A stretch of 64,000 nt of DNA from NCBI RefSeq assembly GCF_001887595.1, contig NZ_CP017480.1, positions 3,748,001 to 3,812,000 on the forward strand. Direction: 5' to 3'. Positions within the stretch are counted from its first letter, which is position 1. Each line of letters begins with the position of its first letter. Under the pieces are notes generated by a model, which ran no database searches, had not been told where the DNA came from, and worked only from the letters and a program-made list of their open reading frames with translations. Both the position numbers and the translations under genes were made by a program. This DNA comes from Luteibacter rhizovicinus DSM 16549. Its GTDB lineage: Bacteria > Pseudomonadota > Gammaproteobacteria > Xanthomonadales > Rhodanobacteraceae. Shown here piece after piece: positions 27,455 through 34,010 of this stretch.

Positions 27455-27710
27455 GTTGCCGTCCTCCTCTTTGGGACCCCCCGGTCTCGCCGATGCATAA
27501 GACGTTACGCCTGTCGCGTCCTGCGGTGAGCCGAAGATTTACTTAGGACGAAAGGACGGTATAGAACGAATGCCGAGGTATGCCTTCCGTTCGAATCGGA
27601 TAACCGTCATGCATATCCGAAAGACCGTCATCGCCCTGAACGACACCATGCAGGGAAGGGGAACCGACGTATCCTGCGTCGGCGTCTGCCAGGGCATGGG
27701 GAGTTCCGCG

Positions 27711-27995
27711 ATGAGAAAGGTGATTCTGTGGAGTGTCGCCCTCGGCGGCGCGCTGGCCTTCGGCTGTGCGACGCAGGCCCAGCAGGGGCCCATGGTCGAT
27801 ATAGGAAACCGGCACGGCAATCTGCGCCAGGCCCAGGAAAACATCGTGCAGGCGTGGCACCTGGTGAGCAATGCGCAGGAGATGAACGACTCACGTCTTG
27901 GCGGACATGCGGCGAACGCGAAGCGCTTGCTGGAACAGGCCAACGATGAGCTGCGTCTGGCCGCGGATGTCGCCAACGAGAACGAGCGGCGCTGA
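27711..27995 (+). CDS. Small exported helical protein
   Basis: Exported protein of 94 residues: signal peptide (RKVILWSVALGGALAFG), then an amphipathic two-helix segment GNLRQAQENIVQAWHLVSNAQEM and GGHAANAKRLLEQANDELRLAADVA. This histidine-containing helical pattern occurs in a family of small uncharacterised periplasmic proteins in Proteobacteria. ATG at 27711 has GGGGAG 7 bases upstream. Its stop is four bases before the multicopper oxidase start, so it is the first gene of that operon. A role as a metal or partner-binding accessory of the oxidase is inference. Confidence 0.75.
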   Translation: MRKVILWSVALGGALAFGCATQAQQGPMVDIGNRHGNLRQAQENIVQAWHLVSNAQEMNDSRLGGHAANAKRLLEQANDELRLAADVANENERR

Positions 27996-27999
27996 ACGG

Positions 28000-29544
28000 A
28001 TGATCAGGCGAAGGCCCCTCCGCGCGGTCGCCCTGGCCGCGCTGGCCTGTCTTGCCGGCGCGGCGTTGGCTGACCCGCCGTCGGACGATTTGCGCCCGCC
28101 ACATGAGTTCACCTACGACGTCAACGGCGTGACCACGGTCACCCTCATGGCCGCAAAGTCGAAGATCCTGGTCGGCAACACGCCTTACACCTCATTGGTC
28201 TTCAACGACGACTACGACGCGCCATTGATTCGCACGCGTCCCGGCGGAACGATCCGGCTCACGCTAGACAATCGCATGGACGAGATGACCAACCTGCATT
28301 TCCACGGCATGCAGGTGTCGCCGCTCGACGACGGTGACAGCATCTTCCGCACCACCGGTCCGCACGAGAAGGGGCAGTATGTCCTGCGCCTGCCCGACGA
28401 TCATTCGCCGGGCCCGTACTGGTACCACAGCCATTTCCACGATGGCGCCGAGCACCAGGTCTCTGGTGGCCTGGCCGGCCCGATCCTGGTTGACGGCATC
28501 ACCGACCAGTTCCCCGAGCTGAAGGCCGTGCGTGAGCGCGCACTGGTCCTGCGCAACTTCCAGAAAACCTTCACCGGGGCGTTGGCCAGCGAAATCGTCA
28601 CCGGTGCGCCGTCCATCCGCACCATCAACGGCCAGTTCCAGCCGATCATCCGCATCCACCCAGGCGAGACCCAGCTCTGGCATCTGTTCAACATCGCGGC
28701 GAACCAGTATTTCCGCATCCGTATCGATGGCGTGCACATGCAGCTGATCTCCCAGGACGCCGATACGGTGGTCAAGCCGATCGGCGTCGACGAGATGCTG
28801 ATCGGACCTTCCGCGCGGGTAAGCATCCTGGTGACCGGCCCCGCCCCTGGCTCCTATCCGCTGAAGCTGGGGTCGGCCAATACCGGCCCGGCCGGCGATA
28901 CCTATGCCGCGGCCGTGCTGGGCACGCTCGTCTCATCCGGCGAGCCGATGAAGACGGTCGCGATCACCAGTCCTTACCCCGCCGTTGCCGACCTGCGCAA
29001 GGTGGCGCCAGCCCATCGGCGTCGCTTCGTCTTCCAGGATTCCGACTCCGATCCGAATGCCTTTTTTATCAACGGCCGCCAGTTCGACATCGGCCGCGTC
29101 GACACGACGGTGATGCTGGGCGATGTCGAAGAATGGACCCTGGTCAATCCCAGCCAGGAGCTTCATCAGTTTCACATCCATCAGCTCGATTTCCAGGTGA
29201 CGAAGATCAACGGCAAGGACGTCGACTTCATCGGCTATCGCGACAACGTGTTCATTCCCGCGCTGGGCTCGACCACGGTGCTGATTCCCTTCACCGACCC
29301 GGTGATCCTGGGCAAGTTCGTCTATCACTGCCACATCATGGAGCACGAAGACGGCGGCATGATGCAGGTGATCCAGGTCGTGCGTCCCGAGGAATACGAG
29401 CAGGCGGTCAAGCTCGAGCCGCTGGGCGGCATCTACGGCGACAACCAGATGTGCGTCTACCTGCGGAACACCGGCGGAGCCGCGCTAACGCCGCCGGCGA
29501 ACGCGAGCCGTCCGCTTGGCTCGACACCCGAGGGCAAGCCATGA
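28000..29544 (+). CDS. Multicopper oxidase (laccase/CumA type)
   Basis: Exported copper oxidase of 514 residues with three cupredoxin domains. All four copper-binding segments are present: NLHFHGMQ (H100, H102), WYHSHFHDG (H143, H145), LHQFHIHQLD, and near the C-terminus YHCHIMEHEDGGMM with the T1 cysteine. The signal peptide is IRRRPLRAVALAALACLAGAALA. Such enzymes oxidise Cu(I), Mn(II), Fe(II) or phenolics in the periplasm or on the surface. ATG at 28000 follows the preceding gene by four bases, and the stop overlaps the next start (ATGA). No methionine-rich loop like that of CueO is apparent, so a laccase or metal-oxidase role is equally open. Confidence 0.92.
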   Translation: MIRRRPLRAVALAALACLAGAALADPPSDDLRPPHEFTYDVNGVTTVTLMAAKSKILVGNTPYTSLVFNDDYDAPLIRTRPGGTIRLTLDNRMDEMTNLHFHGMQVSPLDDGDSIFRTTGPHEKGQYVLRLPDDHSPGPYWYHSHFHDGAEHQVSGGLAGPILVDGITDQFPELKAVRERALVLRNFQKTFTGALASEIVTGAPSIRTINGQFQPIIRIHPGETQLWHLFNIAANQYFRIRIDGVHMQLISQDADTVVKPIGVDEMLIGPSARVSILVTGPAPGSYPLKLGSANTGPAGDTYAAAVLGTLVSSGEPMKTVAITSPYPAVADLRKVAPAHRRRFVFQDSDSDPNAFFINGRQFDIGRVDTTVMLGDVEEWTLVNPSQELHQFHIHQLDFQVTKINGKDVDFIGYRDNVFIPALGSTTVLIPFTDPVILGKFVYHCHIMEHEDGGMMQVIQVVRPEEYEQAVKLEPLGGIYGDNQMCVYLRNTGGAALTPPANASRPLGSTPEGKP

Positions 29545-30671
29545 GCCGGCGCGCCACCGCCACGGGGATCCTCGTCGCCCTCGCGATCGTGGGCCCGGCG
29601 CAGGCCAGCAATGGCCGTTATCCCGGGCTCGGCATGGATTACAGCACGGCGATCCAGTACGACTTCAGCAGCCTCGATGTCCCACATCAACCACATACGG
29701 TCACCACCAACGGCTACTTCGATATCACCACCGCGGTGCACTTCCGGCTGACGACGATCGACGAAATCTGGGTGGGTAGCGAGATCAGTCCGGTGACCGA
29801 TACGCGTCCCGGCGAGCGCCGTTGGCTCGGTGGCACCGGCCTCAACATCACCGATGTGAACTGGTATCACCAAGGCTATGTCTCGTCGTTTCGCCTGGGC
29901 AAGTTCGACGTGCCGTTCGGTCGCGCGCAGGACGCCGCGCCTGGCCTGTACACGTCGGATTTCGTCGCTCCCTATGCGCTGGGTGGGATGAATGGCGGTA
30001 CCTACGAGTACCGTTTCTACACGGACAACTGGGGCACGATCGCGCCAAGCCTCAGTGCGTATGCCGCCGATACCTCGGTGCTCAGCCGTTCCTTCCTGCG
30101 CCCATCGCAACAGGCGCGCCGCTCCGACGGCGGTGCGACCAACACGGGCAAGCTCAACAACGCCGCCGTGGTGGTCAACTGGCGCTCGCCCGCCGCCATC
30201 CCCTTCCTCGAGTTGCAGGTGGGTTACATGAGCAACCACAAGGGCGATGTCTCCGCGGCATCGCCTGCTGCGGCCAACGAGCAGATGCGCGTCGCCTCCG
30301 TGCGTTACATGATTCCCTTCGTGGCGACGACCGAGCTCGGCCCGACACTCGCCGGCCGCTACATGGACCTGGTGCCCTTTGTCGAATACGTGAAAGTGCA
30401 CAACGAGAACGGCGTGCCGGGTTTCGATACGAAGTACCTGACCACCTCGCTTACCTTCGATGCCGGCCGCTTTGCCTATGGCCTCACGCATACGAACAAG
30501 AGGATATCGCCCAGCGGCGGAGCGGAAAGCAACGAATACCTCACCGAGGCCAGCATGGTCTATCACGTGACCGGCCTGGTGGACGTCGCCGTGTCGGGCG
30601 GAAGGTCACGCCAGGGCGGCCAGACCTCGGGCCTGCTCGGTGTATCGATCACCTTGAACGGATCGTTCTGA
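29541..30671 (+). CDS. Putative outer-membrane beta-barrel protein in the oxidase operon
   Basis: Exported protein of 376 residues: signal peptide (TGILVALAIVGPAQAS), then alternating amphipathic strands (AVHFRLTTIDEIWVGSEIS, VSSFRLGKFDVPFGRAQ, GTYEYRFYTDNWGTIAPSLSAY) and a final strand GVSITLNGSF ending in phenylalanine, the outer-membrane assembly signal. It resembles a porin-like barrel but I cannot assign a family. It overlaps the multicopper oxidase stop by four bases and the SCO gene by one, so the three are coupled. It may carry the oxidase or its substrate across the outer membrane (inference). Confidence 0.72.
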   Translation: MSRRATATGILVALAIVGPAQASNGRYPGLGMDYSTAIQYDFSSLDVPHQPHTVTTNGYFDITTAVHFRLTTIDEIWVGSEISPVTDTRPGERRWLGGTGLNITDVNWYHQGYVSSFRLGKFDVPFGRAQDAAPGLYTSDFVAPYALGGMNGGTYEYRFYTDNWGTIAPSLSAYAADTSVLSRSFLRPSQQARRSDGGATNTGKLNNAAVVVNWRSPAAIPFLELQVGYMSNHKGDVSAASPAAANEQMRVASVRYMIPFVATTELGPTLAGRYMDLVPFVEYVKVHNENGVPGFDTKYLTTSLTFDAGRFAYGLTHTNKRISPSGGAESNEYLTEASMVYHVTGLVDVAVSGGRSRQGGQTSGLLGVSITLNGSF

Positions 30672-31228
30672 TGCGACCACTCGCCATCCTTCTCACGGCT
30701 TTCGTGCTGTTACCGGCGTCGAGCCACGGCGCCGCACCGGCCGTGGGTGGGCCTTTTCAGCTGACCGATCAGGATGGCCGTGCCGTGACGCAGGCATCGT
30801 TCGCCGGGCGGCCGCTGCTTCTTTATTTCGGCTACACCTCGTGCCCGGACGTGTGTCCTGTGGACCTGGCGAAAATGGTGAAGATCGCGGCCGCGGTGCG
30901 TCAGTCCAGCGGGAAGGCCGTCACGCCGGTCTTCGTCACCATCGACCCTGAACGCGATACCCCCGCGCGACTCCAGGCGTATGTCAGGGCCTTCGGCAAG
31001 GACGTGGTCGGCTTGACCGGCACGAGGACGCAGATCGACGCGGTCACCGAGGAATACCACGTCTATTTCAAGAAAGTGCCGGTCGATGGCGGATACCTGA
31101 TGGACCATTCGACGGTGCTGTTCCTCGTCGGCGCCAACGGCGTCTACCTCGACCACTATGGACGGAAGCTACCCGAGGAGGATGTCGCCCGGCGCGTCGT
31201 CACCGCACTGCAGGCTTCGGGCACCTGA
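30671..31228 (+). CDS. SCO1/SenC family copper chaperone
   Basis: Periplasmic thioredoxin-fold protein of 185 residues. The copper-binding motif CPDVC (C58, C62) and H146 in LMDHSTVLF are in place, with GYTSCPDVCPVDLAKM and FVTIDPERDTP typical of SCO1/SenC. These proteins deliver copper to, or reduce cysteines of, copper enzymes such as cytochrome oxidase CuA. Here the neighbour is a multicopper oxidase, so it may supply that enzyme. The signal peptide is RPLAILLTAFVLLPASSHG. ATG overlaps the previous stop (TGATG). Confidence 0.9.
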   Translation: MRPLAILLTAFVLLPASSHGAAPAVGGPFQLTDQDGRAVTQASFAGRPLLLYFGYTSCPDVCPVDLAKMVKIAAAVRQSSGKAVTPVFVTIDPERDTPARLQAYVRAFGKDVVGLTGTRTQIDAVTEEYHVYFKKVPVDGGYLMDHSTVLFLVGANGVYLDHYGRKLPEEDVARRVVTALQASGT

Positions 31229-31266
31229 GGCCACGCAGTGTCCTTTCGCATCTGTACGGAGGTCCC

Positions 31267-31545
31267 ATGAAACACACTCGCACACTCCTGCTCGCCGCGG
31301 CCGTCGCGACCGCGGGCATGTTCACCCAGGCATCCATGGCCGATGGCAGTCCGACGTATCCGTCGTTTGCCACGATCGCGCACGGCAAGAAGATGCTGAG
31401 CCGTGACGACATCGACAAACTCGACGAGAAGAAATATCCGGCGCTGGCTGGCCTGAAGTCGCATTTCGACGATGCCGACCTGGACCACGATCACAACCTG
31501 AATCAGTACGAGTACGACCATTACATGAGCAATACGCCGCACTGA
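31267..31545 (+). CDS. Exported EF-hand protein
   Basis: Exported protein of 92 residues: signal peptide (about 1-25, ending ASMA) and one complete EF-hand loop with D71, D73, D75, N77, N79 and E82 in DLDHDHNLNQYE, preceded by a helix. It should bind calcium (or another divalent cation) in the periplasm. ATG at 31267 has CGGAG 6 bases upstream. Last gene of the multicopper-oxidase operon, 38 bases after the SCO gene; it is followed by a pair of inverted REPs. Its partner is not known. Confidence 0.8.
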   Translation: MKHTRTLLLAAAVATAGMFTQASMADGSPTYPSFATIAHGKKMLSRDDIDKLDEKKYPALAGLKSHFDDADLDHDHNLNQYEYDHYMSNTPH

Positions 31546-31659: not shown

Positions 31660-32370
31660 TCAATCCCAGAACGCCTGCACGATCCGGTCGTTCGGCCCGA
31701 GGATCAGGGTCAGGCGGTTCGGATCGGTGTCCAGCGTCCGGATGCCGTCGTTCTCGTGCAGCACGCGCGTGCTGGCCGGAAGGTCTTCTTCACGTACCGC
31801 CTCCTTGCCGCTGGCCGAGCCGCCCTTGGGTACATAGGTCTTGCCTACGCAACTGGAGCAATCCACCTCGCGTCCCTGTGCTTCGGCGTAGCCCGGAAGC
31901 TGCGTGAGCTTGACCGTATTCGTCGCACTGCGCACGCGGATGCCCTTGTAGGGATGGCCCGGTTCGATGACGAAGATGGCTTCCATCGGCCCGAACTTCG
32001 TCGCGTTGGAGGCATCGTCCGGTGCCCGGGCGACGAAGAGCAGGTCGAGCATGCCGTCGGCCGAGGGGCCGCGCGACATGGCGACGAGCTGCGGGTCGCT
32101 CCAGTTCTCGGTACTGCTCAGGCCGCGGACGCGCACGATATCGAGCTCCGGGGAGTGGCTGCTGCGCATCAGTTCGACGCTGCTGACCTTGAACAGGGGT
32201 TTGACGGCCTCGTCGGCGGCCTCCTCGTCGGACGCCGGCGGTTCCGTCGACGGGGCGGACGTTTCCCTCGACGTCGCGGCGGTAGCACTCTGGCCGAGGG
32301 CCAGGCCGTGTGGTGCGAGCAAGAGGCCACCCACGGCCATGAAAAACACGAGCTGAGTCTTAGTATTCAT
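31660..32370 (-). CDS. Exported protein of unknown family, third gene of the Grr operon
   Basis: Exported protein of 236 residues; I do not recognise its family. It has a signal peptide (VFFMAVGGLLLAPHGLALGQ), an acidic low-complexity linker (about 28-58), then a folded domain with beta-strand-like segments (DIVRVRGL, LDLLFVARAP, MEAIFVIEP), a CSSC dithiol motif at about residues 170-173 (VDCSSCVGKTY), and a C-terminal LTLILGPNDRIVQAFWD. Start at ATG 32370 with GGAG 4 bases upstream; it overlaps the radical SAM stop by four bases. It is not the solute-binding-like protein (GrrP) I know from other Grr loci. The redox-type CSSC suggests a periplasmic partner of the matured peptide. Confidence 0.72.
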   Translation of the reverse strand: MNTKTQLVFFMAVGGLLLAPHGLALGQSATAATSRETSAPSTEPPASDEEAADEAVKPLFKVSSVELMRSSHSPELDIVRVRGLSSTENWSDPQLVAMSRGPSADGMLDLLFVARAPDDASNATKFGPMEAIFVIEPGHPYKGIRVRSATNTVKLTQLPGYAEAQGREVDCSSCVGKTYVPKGGSASGKEAVREEDLPASTRVLHENDGIRTLDTDPNRLTLILGPNDRIVQAFWD

Positions 32371-33545
32371 GACGCGCTCCTCACCAGCATGTCGTCGTCG
32401 AGGACTGTCTCGAGCCGGTCCAGCGCGTCGAGGATCAGGTCCGTGGGTACCTTCTGGACCAGGTCGCAGAACGAGGTCCGGGTCGTGGCAAAGCTGCCGT
32501 TCTCGGTCAGCTTGTTGATCGGCGAACCGCCGCCGCAGACGGAAAAATACGCACACTCCGCTCGACAGGCGGCGACGCCGGCGGCGATATCGCGATGCAT
32601 GGCACGCATGGCGTCGCTCCGGCGCATGTCGTCGAGCGAGTCGGTGTGGATGTTGCCGACGATGAAGTCGCCGTAGTCGGCGTTCTTCAGTCCCAGCAGC
32701 TCGGGCGAGAAGCTCGACACGTTGCCGTGGCAGTCGACATTGATCATGCCGAAGGGCTGCACCTGCGAGTTCTCGCCTGCGGCTTCGTCGGGGCGAAGGA
32801 TGCGCGTGAGCATGCCGTCGATCTCGCGCAGGAAACGAATGCCTGCGGCCTCCCGGGATTTTCGCCAGAAGTGTCCGAGGAACTGGCGGAACCGGGCTTC
32901 GGCGCCGCCATCGGCGAAGAGTTCGGAGATATGGTCGCCTTCGGATTCCTCGACGTTGAAGCACACATCGGTGATCCCGGCGTCCCGATAGAACGCGAGC
33001 ATCTCGTCCGGCGCCTGCAGTGCCCGGGTCGACAGCACTGAAATGACGTGGAAGGGAATGTCTTCCTCGATCAGGCAGCGGATGCCGGCAGCCGTTTTGT
33101 CGAAGGTGCCACGGCCTTGCCGGGTCACCCGGTTGGCATCGTGAATCTCGCGCGGACCGTCGATGCTCACGCCGACGCCGACCTGCCAGCGACGGAAGAG
33201 GGCGCACCAGGTGGCATCGATCAGCATGCCGTTGGTCTGGATGGCGTGGCGTACCTCGATACCTGGCGGGGTCAACGCGGCGACGAGGGCAAATGCCTCT
33301 TCGTAGTACGTCACGGGCATCACCAGTGGCTCGCCGGCATGCCAGATCACGGTGAGCCAGGGATGGGACCAGCCGGAGGCGAACAGGGCGGTAAACACGG
33401 CGCGCACCGTATCGAGCGACATCTTCGAGGTGTCGCTGCGGCTTGGCAGGTAGCAGTAGCGACACGCGATATTGCAGAACGGCGTGGGCTGCAGCACGAC
33501 GGTATCGACACAGGGGCGGCCCTCAGCCGCTGTGTCGGCGCTCAC
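32367..33545 (-). CDS. grrM: GrrM/OscB-like radical SAM/SPASM peptide maturase
   Basis: Radical SAM enzyme of 392 residues. The iron-sulphur motif CxxxCxxC is C24, C28 and C31 (TPFCNIACRYCYLPSRSD), and VIWHAGEPL, AIQTNGMLI and VGVSIDGPREIHD follow in the usual order. The C-terminal SPASM domain has further cysteines (DCHGNVSSFSPEL, CRAECAYFSVCGGGSPINKL, TSFCDL). The pattern matches the GrrM family, which installs three-residue cyclophanes by joining an aromatic side chain to a residue two positions on. It starts at GTG 33545, overlapping the precursor stop (GTGA), and ends overlapping the third gene. The substrate is therefore very likely the W-x-N-rich precursor upstream. Confidence 0.9.
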   Translation of the reverse strand: MSADTAAEGRPCVDTVVLQPTPFCNIACRYCYLPSRSDTSKMSLDTVRAVFTALFASGWSHPWLTVIWHAGEPLVMPVTYYEEAFALVAALTPPGIEVRHAIQTNGMLIDATWCALFRRWQVGVGVSIDGPREIHDANRVTRQGRGTFDKTAAGIRCLIEEDIPFHVISVLSTRALQAPDEMLAFYRDAGITDVCFNVEESEGDHISELFADGGAEARFRQFLGHFWRKSREAAGIRFLREIDGMLTRILRPDEAAGENSQVQPFGMINVDCHGNVSSFSPELLGLKNADYGDFIVGNIHTDSLDDMRRSDAMRAMHRDIAAGVAACRAECAYFSVCGGGSPINKLTENGSFATTRTSFCDLVQKVPTDLILDALDRLETVLDDDMLVRSAS

Positions 33546-33928
33546 CAGTTGTGCCAGAAGTTGTGCCAGCCGCCATTGCCCCAGTTATGCCAGCCGTTAC
33601 CCCAGTTGTGCCAACCGTTGCCCCAGTTCCGCCAGCCACCGTTCCGCCAGCCGCCATTGCGCCAGCCGAAACCCCCGAAGTTCATCCAGGCGAGAAGCGG
33701 ATAGGCGGTGCCGCGCACCGGACTCGCGCCTTCGGCTTCGCTGGCGACTCCCTCGCGAATGGCAGCAAGGCGATCGGCTACGTTGAGCGTGACGTCGGCG
33801 GGATCCGAGGCGACGCGCGAGGCCGGCAGGACGGTCGCCTGCGCCGATCCGAGCAGGGTGGAGGCGCCGAGGATGCCCGCGGGAAGCAGCACGGCGAGGG
33901 CTCGGCGGGTACGGTTCCAGTCGGACAT
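33542..33928 (-). CDS. grrA: GrrA-like cyclophane RiPP precursor with eleven W-x-N motifs
   Basis: Precursor peptide of 128 residues. An N-terminal hydrophobic, signal-like segment (RRALAVLLPAGILGASTLLG) is followed by a leader with DVTLNVADRLAAIREGV (residues 45-61), resembling the leader helix of GrrA precursors. The C-terminal 48 residues (81-128) are only W, N, G, R, H, M and F and hold eleven W-x-N motifs: WMN once, WRN three times, WGN three times and WHN four times, plus a final W. ATG at 33928 has GGAG 7 bases upstream. The stop overlaps the maturase start. A glycine-tryptophan-asparagine structural protein is the alternative, but coupling to a GrrM-like enzyme makes a modified peptide far more likely. 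Confidence 0.88.
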   Translation of the reverse strand: MSDWNRTRRALAVLLPAGILGASTLLGSAQATVLPASRVASDPADVTLNVADRLAAIREGVASEAEGASPVRGTAYPLLAWMNFGGFGWRNGGWRNGGWRNWGNGWHNWGNGWHNWGNGGWHNFWHNW

Positions 33929-33994
33929 GGGGAACTCCATGGCGGATGAGCGGACGTCCTGCAGACGTTAGGCATTCGCCCCGTGGCGGGCATG

Positions 33995-34010
33995 CGTAGA
34001 ACTACGTAGT
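33995..34010. promoter_or_regulatory. GTAGAACTACGTAG site upstream of grrA and alkB
   Basis: GTAGAACTACGTAG contains the perfect palindrome ACTACGTAGT and lies 67-82 bases upstream of the grrA-like start and 23 bases upstream of alkB. A 14-base copy with one mismatch (GTAGAACTACCTAG) occurs on the minus strand upstream of the exported-protein gene at 58909. LuxR/NarL-type regulators bind similar dyads. The function is inferred only from position and repetition. Confidence 0.4.

Follow-up and report, generated by a model that had tools for sequence, protein, structure and literature searches.

The window analyzed here, a stretch of 64,000 nucleotides from Luteibacter rhizovicinus DSM 16549 (contig NZ_CP017480.1, positions 3,748,001 to 3,812,000), carries on its minus strand, from position 33928 to 31660, a precursor gene, a gene for the radical SAM enzyme GrrM, and a third gene, in this order, and the three almost certainly make up a Grr operon. 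The original prediction, made from the letters of the DNA, had placed three frames with two four-base overlaps here, and re-reading of the window confirmed this: the precursor and GrrM genes overlap in GTGA, and the GrrM and third genes in ATGA. The ATGA junction was also found in two other Luteibacter loci (L003 and L004), in which the precursor/GrrM junction is a 6-base gap if the first possible GrrM start is taken. An alternative in-frame ATG at 33940 would extend the precursor to 132 amino acids; GGAG directly precedes the ATG at 33928. The genome has one GrrM copy. The features of the operon are as follows.

33542..33928, minus strand: GrrA/OscA1-family precursor gene, 128 amino acids (TIGR04260 match; GGAG before the ATG at 33928)
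33836..33928, minus strand: export-signal-like segment of the precursor, residues 1-31, ending A-Q-A (hydrophobic stretch and loose A-x-A-like site)
33743..33781, minus strand: conserved leader motif VADRLAAIREGVA, residues 50-62, a possible GrrM recognition element (pattern match)
33545..33688, minus strand: core W81-W128 with 11 W-x-N motifs (count against shuffles)
32367..33545, minus strand: GrrM/OscB radical SAM/SPASM maturase gene, 392 amino acids, GTG start (TIGR04261, PF04055, and Cys conservation)
31660..32370, minus strand: third gene, 236 amino acids, for a predicted exported two-domain Grr partner (homologues, alignment A1 described below, and structure model)
32287..32370, minus strand: predicted signal-peptide-like N terminus of the third protein, residues 1-28 (sequence by eye and low model confidence)
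31882..32211, minus strand: beta-sandwich domain, residues 54-163
31663..31875, minus strand: I78/potato-inhibitor-I-like domain, residues 166-236, with CxxC at 171-174
31708..31746, minus strand: putative reactive loop, residues 209-221, with presumed P1 Leu213 (column counts in 61 members and alignment to the inhibitor AFUEI)

The enzyme scored 404.2 bits against TIGR04261 (GrrM/OscB; cut-off 310), and sister families stayed below their cut-offs (AmcB, 297.2 against 425; YhhB, 135.2 against 445; XyeB, 87 against 450). Among the 25 listed of 63 matching NCBIfam families, GrrM/OscB alone exceeded its cut-off, and clustering with unrelated maturases, which the original prediction had raised, was thus not seen. 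Pfam family PF04055 was also matched. Residues C24, C28, and C31, correctly named beforehand as the radical SAM cysteines, form a CX3CX2C motif present in all 20 aligned GrrMs. The accompanying claim of SPASM cysteines held in part: C327, C331, C337, and C360 in the C-terminal half were invariant in 20/20 aligned GrrMs (C272 is Cys in 11/20), but the enzyme did not pass the Pfam SPASM model (PF13186; 17.7 bits against a gathering cut-off of 21.5). A full SPASM domain has more conserved cysteines than the SPASM part of GrrM shows.

The precursor matched TIGR04260 (GrrA/OscA1) with 41.1 bits (cut-off 31) over residues 12-129 of the 132-residue version. With five other precursors, the same model was passed by L060 (88.4) and L006 (31.8), and a match was absent in L012, L066, and L067. 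The anticipated assignment of precursor and enzyme to the Grr type is thus borne out by two curated models above cut-off, which supports, at the level of sequence, a pair of an already known kind that shares with the OscA/OscB (GrrA/GrrM) systems both families and the W-x-N core.

Of the 12 tryptophans among the 62 C-terminal residues of the precursor, 11 lie in W-x-N triplets, four of them W-H-N. This count compares with a mean of 2.63 in shuffled sequences and was reached by 0 of 2,000 shuffles, so that the Trp-Asn-rich core noticed in the prediction is far from chance. Aromatic-x-Asn triplets were found in all 16 precursors of our set, from which those of L005 (whose contig begins inside GrrM) and L069 had been left out: 15 carry 6 to 12 W-x-N, and the weakest core (L012, 6 W-x-N) was equalled by 8 of 2,000 shuffles. 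The precursor alignment lacks L009 and holds a shortened L061 owing to start choice; both core counts are valid. The remaining precursor, at L015:1123-1452 (plus strand) in genome G277, is GrrA-like and has 8 F-x-N repeats, mostly FPN, and no Trp; it adjoins a GrrM that lacks the third gene, and a transposase-like frame (by eye) is near.

According to a review, OscB bonds Trp, through C7, to Cbeta of an Asn or Asp at position i+2, and Phe, through C4, to Cbeta of an Asn at i+2 (PMC11002830), and another paper gives the motif of strained cyclophanes as Aro-Xaa-Asn (PMC9062424). Since OscB crosslinks such motifs (PMC11002830), the W-x-N triplets of the precursor very likely become cyclophanes, and the product predicted from its sequence would be a ribbon of as many as 11 small rings.

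Ahead of the core, a leader motif of the type ADRLxxIR matched as a pattern in 14 of the 16 precursors and was seen by eye in L012 (SERLAAIR) and L059 (SERLESIR); it is a possible recognition element for GrrM. Still further ahead, 15/16 precursors have, by script, a hydrophobic stretch and a site that loosely resembles A-x-A, and the signal of L012, for which the best hydrophobic window of the script fell behind the motif, was seen by eye. In general, a signal peptide directs export by the Sec route and is then cleaved by signal peptidase. By its residue pattern, the precursor would thus be exported by its own signal-like segment, and because the precursor has such a segment, the absence of a dedicated transporter or protease may need no special explanation. 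A precursor candidate at a Nostoc GrrM locus had no export-signal-like segment (by eye). A perfect 10-base palindrome, ACTACGTAGT, lies at 34001-34010, some 70 bases ahead of the precursor start; L003 and L004 have similar, nonidentical ones.

The third gene, which the original prediction could not place, indeed matched no Pfam or NCBIfam family, but it turned out to encode a member of a conserved family of Grr partners that spans two phyla and bears an I78/potato-inhibitor-I-like domain. Its protein has 187 homologues at E<=0.01, 120 of which were listed, and those source names that were listed read hypothetical protein. Alignment A1, consisting of 60 of the 120 listed homologues and the window protein, has 21 columns invariant across its 61 members, and C171 and C174 of the CxxC motif are present in 61/61. 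A structure model reached a mean predicted local distance difference test (pLDDT) score of 80.8, with residues 1-47 below 50. The beta-sandwich of the N-terminal half is weakly similar to NigD-like lipoproteins of Bacteroides (4pqx, 3qwn, and 3nqi), in which an exported beta-sandwich domain seems to be similarly arranged. An identity as a GrrP-type partner, transporter, or peptidase was rejected, as no NCBIfam or Pfam family matched, with no GrrP model searched by name. We expect with good confidence that both the precursor and the third protein are exported.

The third gene lies directly downstream of GrrM, and in the same orientation, in every one of the 13 testable loci (the window, L003-L009, L011, L012, and L057-L059), which span Luteibacter, another gammaproteobacterium, Alphaproteobacteria, and Acidobacteriaceae and thus both Pseudomonadota and Acidobacteriota. 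Scanning of named genomes of bacteria and archaea yielded 12 loci, nine of which have GrrM directly upstream (L003-L009, L011, and L012); L010 and L013 begin too near the third gene to reveal the upstream neighbor and were left out of the count, and L014 (Pseudomonas) was dropped as spurious, being an open reading frame antisense to a sigma-54-type regulator-like gene (by eye). Repeats of counted loci (L001, L002, L016-L018, L023-L025, and L062-L064) were also left out; L003 is Luteibacter sp. dw_328, and the coordinates of this copy equal those of G644 of the same genus. The homologue lists (187 for the third protein; 120 listed of 4,500 for GrrM) carry no gene context, and the GrrM list was not used.

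Within the samples searched, full-length copies were confined to genomes with GrrM. The third gene occurred in 3 of 149 genomes of one family, all three among its six GrrM carriers, and in 3 of 23 genomes of the genus. Across 398 genomes of the phylum, that of the window was the only full-length match, and one partial match covered the first domain (G542); in many genomes of the 149- and 398-genome searches part of the candidates was scored (up to 18 and up to 6 per genome, respectively, among the matches listed), and absence there is not absolute. Of 250 genomes of the order, two had GrrM itself at E<=1e-70. The partial match, at L065:850-1890 (minus strand) in G542, starts with the beta-sandwich domain of the third protein (42 bits), and many GEEGP-x-T repeats stand where the inhibitor-like domain would be.

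Conversely, not every GrrM has this companion. Among nine genomic loci found through GrrM alone, the third gene was present in five (G000, G140, G656, G692, and G722) and missing from four (G277, G681, G714, and G805, the last with 1.5 kb covered on each side of GrrM), and tblastn recognized it in none of six plasmid GrrM records (four from Phaeobacter, one from Streptomyces, and one from Nostoc). These absences are what would be expected of an ordinary Grr operon in which the third gene is a passenger with no part in the pathway. We consider this very improbable, as all 13 testable copies stand directly after GrrM in two phyla, the 61 members share 21 invariant columns, and full-length copies keep to GrrM genomes within the samples searched. 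We are highly confident that the third protein is a functional partner of Grr.

A tree of 20 GrrM rows was examined with the presence of the third gene as a label. The label needs two changes, and 0 of 500 label shuffles were as low, a result that near-copies among the rows favor. L060 and L061, both without the third gene, fell within the carriers, which looks like loss of the gene. The Luteibacter GrrMs stood beside those of Acidobacteriaceae with support of 89/92, below the starred level; this grouping points to transfer between phyla and suggests that the pathway might move between them.

Other GrrM loci have their own neighbors. The Phaeobacter plasmid grrM locus (NZ_CP010716.1, L067) also has GrrM and a GrrA-like precursor (by eye, with no TIGR04260 match), and an exported protein there is related to the beta-sandwich of the third protein with 12.3 bits and an hhalign probability of 23% (E, 9e-4), but its gene lies upstream of the precursor and the C-terminal inhibitor-like part is not recognizable. 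The exported third protein was not found at the Nostoc and Streptomyces plasmid loci, which belong to two other phyla and have another GrrM neighbor of 262-282 amino acids (L066, 3593-4441, and L068, 3092-3880), unmatched in NCBIfam, with a common C-terminal motif YVAPTE...HDGSTL (by eye).

We further compared the C-terminal half of the third protein with I78 inhibitors (PF11720), such as AFUEI of Aspergillus fumigatus (PDB 3w0d). In hhalign comparisons with an I78 profile built from 28 of 30 I78 loci (L041 and the partial L045 were left out), this half gave a probability of 90% (E, 1.5e-6 for one comparison), the N-terminal half gave 0.13%, and the best of 40 column shuffles gave 5.8%. Pfam I78 itself was found at E<=0.1 in 17 of the 61 members, with a best E of 3.6e-5; the members P0099 (23.1 bits) and P0034 (17.5 bits) stayed below the cut-off of 23.6. 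The window protein reached a pairwise score of 46 against AFUEI (maximum of 1,000 shuffles, 45), and AFUEI scores were weak for some members of the family. In the structure model, the C-terminal domain matched the inhibitor fold of 3w0d with modest likeness. The C-terminal half is thus related to I78 (AFUEI-type) inhibitors, as judged by the profile and, modestly, by the modeled fold.

The loop that carries the reactive site in such a reading is strongly conserved. Its pattern T-[LM]-[DE]-x(4)-R-L aligns to T-M-E-Y-I-A-S-R-L of AFUEI; the presumed P1 column is hydrophobic in 60/61 members (L48, F5, A4, I2, M1, and Q1), P1' is D/E in 60/61, and R219 is present in 61/61. The window protein departs from I78 inhibitors in two respects: it has no PF11720 match at E<=0.1, and the paired first and last cysteines of I78 inhibitors are not present, the chain ending in W-D. 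It carries instead the CxxC at the start of the I78-like domain, and it differs from I78 inhibitors also in being fused behind a beta-sandwich. That the third protein inhibits a serine protease is a reasoned guess, which we put forward tentatively.

The main rival explanation takes the third protein as an immunity, escort, or scaffold protein. Outside the cytoplasm, the cyclophane peptide would then be bound by the beta-sandwich, and the I78-like domain would be a purely structural module that has lost protease inhibition. We regard this reading as possible, if somewhat doubtful.

The CxxC motif brings in another explanation, in which the third protein would work on the peptide via these cysteines or via a metal, perhaps as part of a copper- or redox-linked function of the cell envelope, and the rings would belong to a surface protein that binds metal. 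C171 and C174 are invariant in 61/61 members, the core holds four W-H-N triplets, a multicopper oxidase/porin-like/SCO1 module adjoins the operon in Luteibacter, and a multicopper oxidase is also downstream in the Acidobacteriaceae locus L006. However, the oxidase module is present in three Luteibacter genomes that lack the third gene (G640, G645, and G194), the L007 and L008 stretches have no match to the oxidase of the window, and no catalytic family was recognized in Pfam or NCBIfam. A LIM or zinc identity was rejected, since the phmmer match to CRP1 covers a short Cys/Lys/Gly segment (C-x-x-C-x-G-K-x-Y-x-P-K-G), a local look-alike. We judge an action through CxxC or a metal to be unlikely.

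Returning to the inhibitor reading, we propose the following pathway. In the cytoplasm, GrrM would bind the leader motif VADRLxxIR and crosslink Trp with the Asn beta-carbon in as many as 11 W-x-N triplets, with 2 Da lost at each, so that the crosslinked precursor would become a rigid cyclophane ribbon. This precursor would leave by its own Sec-type signal, signal peptidase would remove its front, and neither a dedicated transporter nor a protease would be needed. The third protein, exported separately, would meet the peptide outside the cytoplasm, where its C-terminal domain may block a serine protease of subtilisin, chymotrypsin, or elastase preference (P1 Leu) and thereby guard the product or delay its cleavage; the beta-sandwich probably serves to hold the peptide or to anchor the two together. 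As a whole, this account of an operon for a Grr-type triceptide and an exported partner dedicated to it, with crosslinking, export, and a protease block, is quite possible, and we hold it with reserve. It is rather doubtful whether peptide and inhibitor act as one extracellular unit, a triceptide pathway with a cosecreted beta-sandwich and inhibitor protein common to Pseudomonadota and Acidobacteriota.

The original prediction had considered the locus a candidate for an undescribed system. This goes too far: the precursor and enzyme are of a known kind, and it is the third protein as a Grr partner that looks new, and we found no published description of it in the literature covered, which mostly excludes subscription journals. 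If the proposed function is true, this would be, to our knowledge, the first operon type for a ribosomally synthesized and posttranslationally modified peptide to include a proteinaceous protease inhibitor of its own. The conserved partner, with its recognizable fold and predicted reactive-site residue, makes the role of Grr/Osc triceptides testable at the bench, where protease inhibition by the partner, ring binding, and the location of the peptide outside the cell are the questions raised. Besides, the third gene may serve as a marker for finding this Grr subtype in genomes.

Next to the operon, on the plus strand at 27702-31545, the window holds a five-gene module for a small exported protein, a multicopper oxidase, a porin-like barrel (by eye), a SCO1/SenC protein, and an EF-hand-like protein (by eye). 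Three Luteibacter genomes that lack the third gene (L070-L072) also keep the module; because of this we rejected the copper module as a part of the Grr system and did not count it in.

The small exported protein (27702-27995, plus strand) belongs to a family with the pattern RHGNLxxAQ ... LGGHAxxAKxLL, which has 287 homologues at E<=0.001 (120 of them listed) and no Pfam or NCBIfam family above cut-off. Its gene, located some 3.7 kb away from the operon in Luteibacter, directly follows the third gene in the three Grr loci of Acidobacteriaceae that were retrieved in full (L006:6756-7391, L007:6788-7111, and L008:6730-7023), and in Acidobacteriaceae it may represent a fourth component of the system.
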